From NCBI GenBank assembly GCA_021730945.1, contig JAKFYH010000030.1, forward strand, positions 1 to 64,000: a DNA stretch of 64,000 nt, written 5' to 3'. Below, in pieces: positions 42,334 to 46,854 of this stretch; the stretch's first letter is position 1, and each line of letters opens with the position of its first letter. Source of the stretch: Acidobacteriota bacterium (GTDB taxonomy: Bacteria; Acidobacteriota; Vicinamibacteria; Vicinamibacterales; UBA2999). The position numbers and the translations under genes were made by a program. The notes below the pieces were generated by a model. The model was not told where the DNA came from. It was given only the letters and a program-made list of their open reading frames with translations, and made no database searches.

Positions 42334-43236
42334 ATGCCTATGAAGACTCTGAAGTCTGCGTTATCTGCGTTATCTGTGGCCCTGGTGGTCTTGTCGGTGT
42401 CATCAGCGGCACAGGTCAGGACCGCGGACCCCGTCAAACGCGGTCTGTCCCGATCTGAGTTCCCGCGCACCGTCAAGATCACCGACTCCGTCTACGGCTA
42501 CGAGGACTTCCATAGCGCCGGCATGGTGACGGTCACCTTGTTCGTGGTGGGGGCCGACGGCGTGTTGATTGCCGACGGCCAGGGCAGTCCCGCCGCGACC
42601 CAGAAGCTGCTCGACGCGATTGCCAAGGTCACGCCCAAGCCCGTCAAGTGGTACATCGTCGGGTCGGACCACGGCGATCACACGGCCGGCAATGCCGTCC
42701 TGCCCAAGGACATCACCTTCATCGTGTCGCCGGCCTCGAAGGCGCAGATGAAGCTCGATGCCCCGGCCATGGCGACCAATCGCGAGGTGGTCAATGTCGG
42801 CGGCATCGAGGTGCAGGCGATTTTTGCCGGGCGCGCGCACACGGGTGGCGATCTGCTGGTCTACCTGCCCAGGCAGAAGATCCTGTTCATGAGCGAGGTC
42901 TACCTGAACCGGGTGTTCCCGGCCATGCGCTCGGCTTATCCGTCCGAGTGGGTGAAGGTGATCGATGCGGCCCTGCAGATGGATGTCGACCTGTTCGTGC
43001 CCGGCCACGGGTTCATCGAGGAGCCCAAGGCGGCGCGCGAGGAACTGGTGGAGTACCAGAAGGCCCTGCGGGCGGTGATTGCCGAGGTCAACCGGCTGCA
43101 CACGCAGGGCCTGTCGGTCGACGAGGCGGTCAAGCAGGCCAACTGGGGTCCCTACGCCCAGTGGTACCTCGCCGAGCAACAGGGCCCGATCGCCGTGCGC
43201 AAGGTCTACGACGAGATTACCGGGAAACTGAAGTAA
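42334..43236 (+). CDS. Secreted metallo-beta-lactamase-fold hydrolase
   Basis: 300 residues. Signal peptide (MPMKTLKSALSALSVALVVLSVSS...) whose codons are made of a dispersed repeat. The MBL motif reads SDHGDH, so the first His of HxHxDH is replaced by Ser, while Asp/His of DH, a later AHTGGD His and GHG His remain. This suggests an altered dinuclear site or a one-metal enzyme. Either ATG 42334 or 42340 may be used. Stop overlaps the next start (TAATG). Confidence 0.85.
   Translation: MPMKTLKSALSALSVALVVLSVSSAAQVRTADPVKRGLSRSEFPRTVKITDSVYGYEDFHSAGMVTVTLFVVGADGVLIADGQGSPAATQKLLDAIAKVTPKPVKWYIVGSDHGDHTAGNAVLPKDITFIVSPASKAQMKLDAPAMATNREVVNVGGIEVQAIFAGRAHTGGDLLVYLPRQKILFMSEVYLNRVFPAMRSAYPSEWVKVIDAALQMDVDLFVPGHGFIEEPKAAREELVEYQKALRAVIAEVNRLHTQGLSVDEAVKQANWGPYAQWYLAEQQGPIAVRKVYDEITGKLK
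42351..42380. repeat. Dispersed repeat copy inside a signal peptide
   Basis: TCTGCG-TTATCTGCG-TTATCTGTGGCC is the inverted form of the CCACAGATAACGCAGA element. It encodes SALSALSVA in the MBL-fold protein signal peptide. Confidence 0.6.
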
Positions 43237-43661
43237 TGGCCGGGCAGAGTTACCAGAGCCACGCGCACCACCCGGTCCTCACCTATGTCGCCAGCGCTTT
43301 CGCCTTGCTGGCCCTGATCCTGCTGTATGGTCACTTGCACCTGGGGTGGCGCAGCGGGGATGAGGCCCTGATGGCGTTGACGCTGGCCGTGTTCACGCTG
43401 GCCGCGATCTCGCGGGTGTACACGGTGGCGCTGCAGGATCGCATCATCATGTTGGAGATGAAGGTGCGGTGCGCCGAACTGCTGACCGCCGGCCAGGATG
43501 CCCAGTTGGCCAGGTTGTCGCCCAAGCAGGTCGCGGCGCTGAGGTTTGCCAACGACGACGAGCTGGGCGCGCTGCTGGAACGGGCGGCACGCGAAGACCT
43601 GTCGGCTAAAGACATCAAAGCGTCCATCCGCACCTGGCGTCCCGACCCGTATCGCACGTAA
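43236..43661 (+). CDS. DUF6526-like two-helix membrane protein
   Basis: 141 residues. Two transmembrane helices (about 15-35 and 43-62) followed by a cytoplasmic helical tail containing LAGL-type DAQLARLSPKQVAALRFANDDELGALLERA. The family is common in acidobacteria and bacteroidetes with no known function. ATG overlaps the MBL-fold stop codon by one nt (TAATG), so translation is coupled. Confidence 0.78.
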   Translation: MAGQSYQSHAHHPVLTYVASAFALLALILLYGHLHLGWRSGDEALMALTLAVFTLAAISRVYTVALQDRIIMLEMKVRCAELLTAGQDAQLARLSPKQVAALRFANDDELGALLERAAREDLSAKDIKASIRTWRPDPYRT

Positions 43662-43671
43662 GGGTGCTTTC

Positions 43672-43905
43672 GTGACCGCTGACGAACAACAAGAGGTCCG
43701 GCGTCTGATCGACGCCCACGAGCGCACGCTTCAGGTCTGCCGCGCCTGTGCCGAGACCACGCGCGACCTGGCGTGGGAAGTGAAGCGCGGCAGCGTACCG
43801 CCCCCCGACCAACTGGCGGCCACCCTGGCCGAGGTTGAACGGGTGCTGGCGGAAATTGGCCAGGTCGAAGTGGCGATTGCAGAGATGAAGGCTGCACTCT
43901 GGTAG
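43672..43905 (+). CDS. Small helical hypothetical protein
   Basis: 77 residues from GTG 43672. Predicted coiled-coil-like helices, two Cys (CRAC), no membrane segment. Not recognised. AGGGTG lies six nt before the GTG. Codon use matches neighbours and it closely follows the DUF6526-like gene, so it is probably the end of that operon. Confidence 0.6.
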   Translation: MTADEQQEVRRLIDAHERTLQVCRACAETTRDLAWEVKRGSVPPPDQLAATLAEVERVLAEIGQVEVAIAEMKAALW

Positions 43906-43928
43906 CTCGCGCCGTGCCGGGCCCGAAC

Positions 43929-43940
43929 TAGAATAGACGG
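43929..43940 (+). promoter_or_regulatory. -10 box TAGAAT for leaderless mini-ORF and histidine kinase
   Basis: TAGAAT (43929-43934) is followed after six nt by ATG 43941, the start of a 7-codon ORF that overlaps the kinase start. Confidence 0.6.
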
Positions 43941-43964
43941 ATGCCTGTTCGGAGTGTCCGGTGA
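43941..43964 (+). CDS. Seven-codon upstream ORF (MPVRSVR)
   Basis: ATG 43941 to TGA 43962-43964. The stop overlaps the kinase GTG (43961) as GTGA. The ATG lies exactly where a leaderless transcript from the TAGAAT box would begin, and GGAG (43951-43954) inside the mini-ORF is correctly spaced for the kinase start. Possible translational-coupling leader; existence as a translated peptide is inferred. Confidence 0.4.
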   Translation: MPVRSVR

Positions 43965-45835
43965 GCGAGACCCCCGGAGTCGAGCAACTTGCCGCGCTCA
44001 TCAACTTCAGTGTGGACGCCGTCATCCTGGTGGACATCGGTGGCGTCATCACCTGGGCCAACCCCGCCACCACCACGGTACTCGGTTACGCGCCGGATGA
44101 TCTGATTGGCCTGCGGGTTCGCGACATTGTCGAGCCGCAGGACCTCGAGGCCTGGCAGGCACTGGTGCGCGAGCTGTTTGACCATCCTTCGGTGCCGCAG
44201 AGCGGCACGTTTCGCTGCCGTCATCGCGACGGCGGCGTGCGCTGGACCGAAGGGGTGGCCCGCAACCTGTTGAGCGAACCGCGCGTCGGCGCGATCGTGG
44301 TTCACTATCGAGACGTGACCGAGCGTAAAGCGACCGAAGAGGCGCTGCGCGTCACCGAGGATCGCTACGGCCACCTGGTCGAATCCGCTGCCGACATCAT
44401 TTTCGAGGCCGACGCCGAGGGCTACTTCCGCTTTGTCAATCCCGAGGCCTTGCGGGTGTTTGGGTATCCGAAGGACGAGGTGATCGGCCGGCGCTTTACC
44501 GAGTTCATTCGCGCCGACTTCCGGCCCGCCATCCTGCAGCACTACTACAAGCAAACCAACGACGGTGTGCTGACTTCCTATGTGGAATTCCCTGGCGTGA
44601 CCCGCTCAGGCGAGGAAGTGTGGCTCGGCCAGAATGCCTGGCTGATCTTTGATGCCAAGGGCCAGTACGCCGGGATGCAGGCGGTGGCGCGCAACATCAC
44701 CGACCGGCTGAGCGCCGAAGGGGCGCTCCGGGCGGCCGAGGCCAAGTATCGCGGGCTGGTCGAGCAGTCGCTGGTCGGCGTCTACATCCTGCAGAATGAC
44801 CGGCTCGTCTACGTCAACCCGAAGGGGGCTGACATCCTGGGCTACTCACCTCAGGAGCTGTTCGATCTGCCGTGGGCGTTCAGCTTGTTGCACGAGCAGG
44901 ATCGCGCCCTGGTGATCGACCAGTTGTCGCGTCTCGGTGGCGCCGACCACGCCAACGTGCAGTTGACGCTGCGCGGCCTGCGCAAGGACGGCGACGTGGT
45001 GCAGGCCGAGGCCTTCTGTTCGGTTACCGAATTTGCCGGCCGGCCGGCGATCCTGGCGACGGTGATCGACATCAGCGATCGCGTCAAGCTGGAAGATCAA
45101 CTGCGGCAGGCGCAGAAGATGGAGGCGGTCGGCCGTCTCGCCGGTGGCATTGCCCACGACTTCAACAATCTGCTGACCGCCATTCGCGGCAACGCCGAGT
45201 TGATGTCGCACCGGGTGAAGAAGGACCCGGCGATGGCGGCGGAGGTGGATGAAATTCTGCACGCGGCCGATCGCGCGGCGTCGTTGACGCGGCAGTTGCT
45301 GGCGTTCAGCCGCAAGCAGATCCTGCAGCCGGTGGCGCTCGACATCAACGATGTCATTGCCAGCGTGACGCGGATGGCGCGGCGGCTGATTGGCACCGCC
45401 GTCCAGTTGCAACTGGCGCTGGCGTCCAATCTGGCGCAGGTGCTGGCCGACCCGGCGCAGATCGAGCAGGTGTTGCTTAACTTGATCGTCAACGCCCGCG
45501 ATGCGATGCCGTCAGGCGGGCTGATCACGGTGGAGACGGCGATGGTCCGGCTCGAAGCCGATTCCCCGGAGATGCAGCAGGCCGGCCTGGCGCCGGGCGC
45601 CTTCGTGATGCTCGCGGTGAGCGACAACGGCATCGGCATGGACCAGGCGACCCAGGGCCGCATCTTTGAACCGTTTTTCACCACCAAGGAGACCGGCCGC
45701 GGCACCGGACTGGGGCTGTCCACGGTCTACGGCATCATCCGCCAGACCGGCGGCGCCATCTCGGTGGTCAGCGAACGCGGGCACGGCGCCTGCTTTCGCG
45801 TCTACCTGCCAGCCGTTAAGGGGGAGTCGTCTTGA
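43961..45835 (+). CDS. PAS-domain sensor histidine kinase
   Basis: 624 residues, no membrane segments, so a cytoplasmic sensor. Three PAS domains (about 8-125, 128-250, 255-370), HisKA with phospho-acceptor His in LAGGIAHDFNNLL (about residue 398), and HATPase with N-box NLIVNARDAMPSGG, G1 DNGIGM, F-box FEPFFTTK and G2 GTGLGLSTVYGI. No receiver domain and no adjacent response regulator gene, so an orphan kinase. Start GTG 43961 overlaps the end of a 7-codon ORF. Confidence 0.9.
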   Translation: MSETPGVEQLAALINFSVDAVILVDIGGVITWANPATTTVLGYAPDDLIGLRVRDIVEPQDLEAWQALVRELFDHPSVPQSGTFRCRHRDGGVRWTEGVARNLLSEPRVGAIVVHYRDVTERKATEEALRVTEDRYGHLVESAADIIFEADAEGYFRFVNPEALRVFGYPKDEVIGRRFTEFIRADFRPAILQHYYKQTNDGVLTSYVEFPGVTRSGEEVWLGQNAWLIFDAKGQYAGMQAVARNITDRLSAEGALRAAEAKYRGLVEQSLVGVYILQNDRLVYVNPKGADILGYSPQELFDLPWAFSLLHEQDRALVIDQLSRLGGADHANVQLTLRGLRKDGDVVQAEAFCSVTEFAGRPAILATVIDISDRVKLEDQLRQAQKMEAVGRLAGGIAHDFNNLLTAIRGNAELMSHRVKKDPAMAAEVDEILHAADRAASLTRQLLAFSRKQILQPVALDINDVIASVTRMARRLIGTAVQLQLALASNLAQVLADPAQIEQVLLNLIVNARDAMPSGGLITVETAMVRLEADSPEMQQAGLAPGAFVMLAVSDNGIGMDQATQGRIFEPFFTTKETGRGTGLGLSTVYGIIRQTGGAISVVSERGHGACFRVYLPAVKGESS

Positions 45836-46854
45836 TACGCAAGCCGGTGGTGTTGATTACAGGTGCGGGTGGAGAAATTGGCCACGGGCTGATCGCACAC
45901 CTGGCCGAGGCCGGCACGCAGCCGGTGGTGACGCTGGATGTGAACCCGCTCGAGCCGGCGCTGGCGAGCAAGGTCCAGCGCGAGTTTACCGGTTCGATCA
46001 TGGACAAGTCGCTGCTCGAACGCGTGCTGTCCGAGTTTGAAGTCGACACCGTGTATCATCTGGCGGCCTTGCTCTCGACCCGGTCCGAGTTCACGCCGGT
46101 GACCGCGCACCAGGTCAACGTCGAGGGCACGTTGAACCTGCTGGAGTTCTCGCAGCGCGAGGCCGAGTCGCACGGCCGGCCGGTCACGTTCCTCTATCCG
46201 TCGTCGATTGCCGCTTACGGCCTGCCCAGTCTCGAAGCCAAGCGCCAGGCCGGAAGGGTGCGCGAAGACGACTACAACACGCCCTCGACCATGTACGGCT
46301 GCAACAAGCTGTACTGCGAGCAACTGGGACGCTACTACGCGAAGTTCTACAAGCAACTGGCGGCCGACACCCAGTCGGGCCGCGTGGACTTCCGGTCGGT
46401 GCGTTTTCCCGGCCTGATCTCGGCGCTGACCGTGCCGTCGGGGGGCACCTCGGACTACGCGCCGGAGATGATTCATGCGGCAGCCAAGGGCGAGCCGTAC
46501 GCGTGCTTTGTCCGTCCCGATACCCGCATTCCGTTCATGGCCATGCCGGATGGTGTTGCCGCGCTGCTGCGGCTGGCGGCGGCGCCGAAAGCGGCGCTGA
46601 CGCGGACGGCCTACAACCTGGCCGCGTTCAACCCGTCGGCGGAAGAAGTGCGGCAGGAGGTGGTCCAGGCCTTCCCGCACGCGGACATCACCTGGCACAA
46701 CGACCTCAAGCGGCAGGGCATCGTCGATTCGTGGCCAGAGGACGTTGACGACAGCGCGGCGCGCCGCGACTGGGGCTTCGCCCCAGCCTACGATTTCACC
46801 AAGGCGTTTCGTGATTACCTGATCCCGACGATTGGCTCCCGTTATGGCAAGTAG
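45832..46854 (+). CDS. L-threonine 3-dehydrogenase-like short-chain epimerase/dehydrogenase
   Basis: 340 residues, extended SDR. NAD-binding GAGGEIGHG (about 10-18), catalytic Tyr-x3-Lys in STMYGCNKLYCEQ, and the C-terminal RQGIVDSWPEDVDDSAARRDWGF block (with residues before) characteristic of epimerase-type threonine dehydrogenases, which oxidise threonine to 2-amino-3-ketobutyrate. GlcNAc-epimerase functions are less likely. TTG start overlaps the kinase stop (TTGA) after GGGGAG. Confidence 0.82.
   Translation: MIRKPVVLITGAGGEIGHGLIAHLAEAGTQPVVTLDVNPLEPALASKVQREFTGSIMDKSLLERVLSEFEVDTVYHLAALLSTRSEFTPVTAHQVNVEGTLNLLEFSQREAESHGRPVTFLYPSSIAAYGLPSLEAKRQAGRVREDDYNTPSTMYGCNKLYCEQLGRYYAKFYKQLAADTQSGRVDFRSVRFPGLISALTVPSGGTSDYAPEMIHAAAKGEPYACFVRPDTRIPFMAMPDGVAALLRLAAAPKAALTRTAYNLAAFNPSAEEVRQEVVQAFPHADITWHNDLKRQGIVDSWPEDVDDSAARRDWGFAPAYDFTKAFRDYLIPTIGSRYGK

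Follow-up and report, generated by a model that had tools for sequence, protein, structure and literature searches.

A conserved short open reading frame, probably leaderless, overlaps the start of a sensor histidine kinase gene in a genus of Acidobacteriota

Introduction

How is a start codon supplied with ribosomes when it is overlapped by the stop codon of an open reading frame (ORF) of only seven codons, which itself begins a few bases after a promoter-like hexamer? This question is raised by a sensor histidine kinase gene on a stretch of 64,000 nucleotides (referred to below as the window) from an Acidobacteriota bacterium of the lineage UBA2999 (assembly GCA_021730945.1, contig JAKFYH010000030.1, positions 1 to 64,000 of the forward strand). 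A first-pass annotation, made from the sequence alone, had described a TAGAAT hexamer, an ATG with seven codons (mini-ORF), a GTGA overlap with the kinase start and an internal GGAG; all of these elements, and the spacings between them, were located at the positions given there (Table 1). From its sequence and conservation, the mini-ORF is best read as a further case of the coupled leaderless small ORFs described in mycobacteria, real and conserved. It probably brings ribosomes to the kinase start, because related species retain the arrangement and not the peptide.

Conservation of the start region

The genus was represented by nine metagenome-assembled genomes of Acidobacteriota, that of the window included. 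A full-length kinase gene was found in seven of these, and the six other products are 75–87 % identical to the kinase of the window; full-length matches from other genera reach about 40 % identity at best. Genome G004 carries the gene only as a broken remnant, in which the frame changes and the middle part is lost, and in G003 no match to the first 246 residues of the kinase was obtained.

The start regions of six species (G000, G005, G006, G007, G001 and G002) consist of CTAGAATAG, four or five bases, ATG, 7 or 9 codons and GTGA. The element CTAGAATAG, which contains TAGAAT, is invariant across these promoter-bearing species, as is the GGAG within the mini-ORF, whereas the bases from the invariant AG to the ATG vary and their count shifts by one. 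Conservation in close relatives had been proposed as one test of the mini-ORF, and its ATG, in-frame length and GTGA overlap proved to be retained in all six species, the window's among them. The mini-ORFs are 7, 7, 7, 7, 9 and 9 codons long, the longer form being that of G001 and G002, and the frame is preserved despite this six-base difference from the other four. All six peptides are different (MPVRSVR, MPVRSAR, MPGRSVR, MPSWSDQ, MSPARRSAR and MSSASRRSR, of which MPSWSDQ belongs to G007); the linkage is thus constant while the peptide diverges.

Genomes G008 and G004 are without the promoter and the mini-ORF. In both, the upstream gene of 77 aa ends in TGGTGA, and its own TGA overlaps the kinase GTG; a GGAG next to this GTG was looked for just upstream, and none was seen. 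GTGA is therefore present at the kinase start in all eight genomes of the genus that have the kinase or its remnant, six times with the stop codon of a mini-ORF and twice with that of the upstream gene. The second residue of the kinase is variable (S, N, T, N, S, K, S, S), but the first base of its codon is always A, which is the A of the TGA. A pattern search of 199 loci returned 25 matches, every one of which is a copy of the kinase loci of these six species.

To set this conservation against a neutral baseline, fourfold degenerate sites were taken from the kinase gene and the 77-aa gene in the same six species. Pairwise divergence at these sites is 0.33 to 0.45, and 52 of 243 sites are invariant, with none invariant among the 23 at which the window has A or T. 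The chance that three letters are invariant at the fourfold rate is about 0.01 (0.214 cubed), and it is smaller if only the A/T sites are used. By this comparison of sequences the invariance of the ATG is above neutral expectation, a result that is conditional on the window having been chosen for its appearance and the relatives not. The tests do not separate selection for translation from some other need for the letters ATG at a transcription start.

Evidence for a leaderless start

In the window the pattern TANAAT-N6-ATG occurs twice, compared with a mean of 0.15 in shuffled sequences. Genome-wide, TAGAAT-N5-8-ATG was found 46 times and a reversed control pattern 4 times. At 39 of the 46 sites the ATG opens a long ORF, defined as one that has 90 aa or more or that is still open where the fetched stretch ends. 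Among these 39 putative leaderless genes the spacer is six bases in 20 cases and seven in 9, and the mini-ORF ATG, at six or seven bases from TAGAAT across the six species, has the spacing of these 29 of 39 genes. Judged by these counts, the TAGAAT motif marks leaderless starts in the window's genome, and the mini-ORF ATG, having the commonest spacing, occupies the position typical of putative leaderless start codons in this organism. The mini-ORF is therefore probably leaderless, with the start of the mRNA predicted at its ATG.

A −35 element was found neither at the kinase promoter nor as a consensus before the 39 genes as a group, in which the best TTGACA match reaches at most 4 of 6 positions. 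Leaderless genes were put at 9.7 to 19.4 % of the genes in three genomes of Acidobacteria (PMC3160421).

Occurrence in the genus and the family

Genomes were scanned for the whole architecture with the pattern TAGAAT-N5-8-ATG-N5-35-RTGA, and YTGA in place of RTGA served as the control. The nine genus genomes gave 74 RTGA rows, seven of them in frame; six of these are the kinase locus, and at the seventh another ATG, four bases further on, seems by eye to open a long gene. The 34 family genomes of other genera gave 82 rows, 10 in frame, of which one contains a premature stop; some of the in-frame rows precede real-looking genes. Recurrence between species was seen in these scans at RTGA loci only, namely the kinase in six species and a 129-aa gene in three. 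Replacement of TAGAAT by TATAAT, the other −10 variant scanned, yielded no in-frame case among 16 genus rows.

The 129-aa gene belongs to the sister genus g21, is cupin-like by eye and has no Pfam match. The promoter TAGAAT, a GGAGG and an RTGA start are kept at this gene in all five species, and the in-frame leaderless ATG (peptide MRRMR) is found only in the three closest. The contrast makes the retention of the kinase ATG in six of six species more telling.

The window's genome has seven short ORFs at TAGAAT sites; four of them terminate in an RTGA, with an ORF of 144 aa or more after it. At C18:11254 of G000 (region C18:11100-12400) a putative leaderless ORF of 37 codons overlaps the start codon of an arginase gene through an ATGA; it was not found in the other eight genomes of the genus, whose sequence upstream of arginase differs. 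Another RTGA short ORF precedes a 284-aa gene that is without a close orthologue in the genus (one partial match at 30 % identity among the eight other genomes); an assignment of this gene as lactate racemase was wrong, as Pfam gives nothing. A further RTGA short ORF at a TAGAAT site in this genome is 58 aa long.

Coordinates and neighbouring genes

Table 1. Features at the kinase start region and in its surroundings, in window coordinates.
Feature	Position	Strand	Basis or remark
77-aa gene upstream of the kinase	43672..43905	+	GTG start set by homology
−10-like hexamer TAGAAT	43929..43934	+	sequence read
Spacer between TAGAAT and the mini-ORF ATG			AGACGG (six bases)
Putative leaderless mini-ORF, ATG CCT GTT CGG AGT GTC CGG TGA (MPVRSVR)	43941..43964	+	start ATG 43941-43943; seven sense codons; stop TGA 43962-43964
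Shine–Dalgarno-like GGAG within the mini-ORF	43951..43954	+	six bases 5′ of the kinase GTG
GTGA overlap	43961..43964	+	kinase GTG (43961-43963) shares bases with the mini-ORF TGA
Sensor histidine kinase, 624 aa	43961..45835	+	Pfam; three PAS stretches, HisKA, HATPase_c
NAD-dependent epimerase-family gene	45832..46854	+	Pfam; TTG start overlaps the kinase stop as TTGA

No ATG, GTG or TTG precedes the kinase GTG in its open frame. Since the TTG of the epimerase-family gene overlaps the kinase stop, the mini-ORF would be the first element of an operon in which the genes overlap. The 77-aa gene ends in MKAALW and TAG, 23 bases before TAGAAT, and a Pfam search with its product was without a match. 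A search against Rfam at gathering scores gave no match between 43000 and 46900.

Homologues of the 77-aa gene were found in 25 of the 43 family genomes, its own included, with a varying downstream neighbour; in several family genomes an epimerase-family gene stands directly or soon after it. Judged from this gene order, the kinase gene seems to have been inserted between the 77-aa gene and the epimerase-family gene in the genus. In G004 the epimerase gene after the kinase remnant (contig G004:C83) appears intact in the portion read. A public contig titled 'Cyanobacteria bacterium' bears the kinase of the genus at 75 % identity, and its name is probably wrong.

Discussion

The observations are accounted for by leaderless initiation on the mini-ORF, followed by termination and re-initiation at the GUGA on the kinase start, a reading to which we assign a probability of roughly 0.6 from the sequences compared here. 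The TAGAAT promoter would start the kinase–epimerase mRNA at the ATG or within about one base of it. A 70S ribosome would bind the 5′ AUG and translate seven codons (nine in two relatives), the sequence of which would be unimportant; it would then stop at the UGA overlapping the kinase GUG and re-initiate there, aided by the nearby GGAG. The mini-ORF would in this way stand in for the stop codon that is given by the upstream gene in species without a private promoter. On read-through transcripts from upstream the ATG would not be 5′-terminal, and the kinase start would depend on the GGAG alone. A stronger version, that the kinase start needs a ribosome terminating on it and that a cassette of promoter plus leaderless mini-ORF replaces the UGA of the upstream gene, is put forward only tentatively and is doubtful on the present comparisons.

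Several points weigh against leaderless initiation with coupled re-initiation. The GGAG, six bases from the GTG, could by itself start the kinase. The six sequences share common descent, perhaps from a single origin, and the kinase tree does not show in which order G001, G002, the four-species group and the G008/G004 pair branched off; the fourfold sites with A or T, numbering only 23, are also a small base. At the 129-aa gene of g21 the ATG is missing in the two more distant of the five species, so such AUGs can be dispensable. Furthermore, in-frame RTGA mini-ORFs are not commoner than their YTGA controls, with 5 loci (12 rows) against 9 loci (9 rows). This comparison covers 37 of the 43 family genomes and excludes G014, G017, G032, G036, G064 and G065, for the first of which the single row listed was discarded. 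Because of an earlier in-frame stop, one G020 row of the RTGA scan and three rows of the YTGA control, all from the 129-aa gene of g21, do not enter the counts. On the + strand the scan gives the shortest match only, so that a longer in-frame case (for example, G000:C16) can be masked, in both scans alike. With this lack of enrichment over the control, a general, family-wide class of RTGA mini-ORFs is not supported.

A plainer explanation takes the kinase for an ordinary Shine–Dalgarno gene with a leader of about 20 bases; the ATG would be fortuitous and inherited, and a second codon with A as its first base would account for the GTGA. In its favour, the GGAG is invariant and well spaced, AUGs next to start codons come and go, as the 129-aa gene illustrates, in-frame YTGA mini-ORFs are at least as frequent in the family as RTGA ones, and the locus was first chosen in one genome for its looks. 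This explanation must nevertheless allow for all three letters of the ATG being kept in six of six species despite the one-base shift in spacing, the variable flanking bases and an invariance of only 52 in 243 at fourfold sites, and for a frame that survives a length difference of six bases; we regard it as rather unlikely. Alternatively, the 5′ AUG might load ribosomes or protect the mRNA and so enhance binding of 30S subunits at the nearby Shine–Dalgarno start, in which case translation of the mini-ORF and the position of its stop would be irrelevant. There is a precedent in ptrB of E. coli, for which it was reported that a change of the 5′-terminal upstream AUG (uAUG) to AUC lowered expression to less than 8 % and that a start-stop mutant was back to 40 % of the wild type (PMC4965119). 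Such a role does not account for the persistence of the frame, and of GTGA as the precise overlap, across the change from seven to nine codons, or for the UGA on the kinase GUG in the species without the promoter, and we consider it improbable.

The first-pass annotation had offered two functions for the mini-ORF, conversion of a leaderless mRNA to coupled re-initiation and a sensing of arginine or tRNA supply. The former was strengthened by the conservation in six of six species; the latter gained no support. An attenuator role, in which the mini-ORF would control the operon through a leader peptide responsive to arginine or charged tRNA(Arg), could draw on two CGG codons in the window and on at least two Arg codons in five of the six species. 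The number of Arg codons ranges from 0 to 3 without a conserved run, though, and the CGG codons derive from CGGAG and CGGTG, that is, from the Shine–Dalgarno sequence and the start codon. No terminator-like hairpin was found at 43200-44300 of the window, the stretch searched against Rfam is likewise empty, and the Pfam matches of the kinase and the epimerase carry no link to arginine. With the mini-ORF of G007 devoid of any Arg codon, arginine sensing was rejected as highly improbable. Folding of the leader in four of the six species gave no structure more stable than shuffled sequences (z −0.11 to 0.89). A hairpin that might hide the Shine–Dalgarno sequence and the GTG was also considered. 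In most of the six species a consensus fold pairs both elements with codons of the kinase, though its covariation term is unfavourable (0.75); in the alignment used, two of the sequences lacked the first base of the ATG.

Relation to known systems and significance

The closest counterparts of the kinase mini-ORF are the 'coupled' small ORFs that were reported on leaderless mycobacterial transcripts, linked to the next gene by RTGA and over-represented (Shell 2015, PMC4633059); for some members, placement and linkage were described as kept without the peptide sequence. As far as can be judged from sequence, the locus has the features of a single ORF of that kind. Its length of 7 aa (7 or 9 in the six species) lies within the 5–50 aa of the mycobacterial ORFs, its TGA shares bases with the RTG of the gene downstream in six of six species, and the linkage is retained though the peptide diverges. 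The differences are that the mycobacterial set is backed, according to that report, by mapping of transcription start sites and by ribosome profiling, whereas the present locus is known from sequence and conservation only, and that RTGA is over-represented there but not here (5 RTGA loci and 9 YTGA loci counted over 37 family genomes). The kinase mini-ORF also belongs to another phylum, contains a GGAG and alternates with an upstream gene as the donor of the stop codon. No report of such ORFs from Acidobacteriota was found among the papers listed in a literature search, the coverage of which left out most subscription papers.

Other systems share single aspects. The E. coli uAUG mRNAs (Beck 2016, PMC4965119) likewise combine a 5′-terminal AUG, here a predicted one, with a Shine–Dalgarno start on one mRNA, and it was reported that such an AUG can alter downstream expression, with effects that vary in sign; as described there, they are not defined by an overlap of stop and start codons. 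Termination–reinitiation at ATGA and TGATG gene pairs, as described in PMC6728339, involves shared stop and start bases, and the same mechanism would serve here, with a seven-codon upstream ORF in place of the first gene of a pair. In a synthetic 'nonsense' ORF (PMC13255528) a short, meaningless ORF with an internal ribosome binding site at its stop is reported to raise translation of the next gene; that construct was engineered in E. coli, and its abstract is silent on leaderless mRNAs.

Coupled leaderless small ORFs have been described experimentally in mycobacteria. The six species with the mini-ORF and the two with another UGA donor provide a natural comparison in which it can be asked whether selection keeps the overlap rather than the peptide. 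Gene finders would miss an ORF of seven codons, and yet a kinase that resembles an ordinary Shine–Dalgarno gene may need one. If the tentative cassette model is true, a start shaped for an internal operon position would still work at the head of the operon, and the mini-ORF would be an adaptor, the sole product of which is a terminating ribosome.
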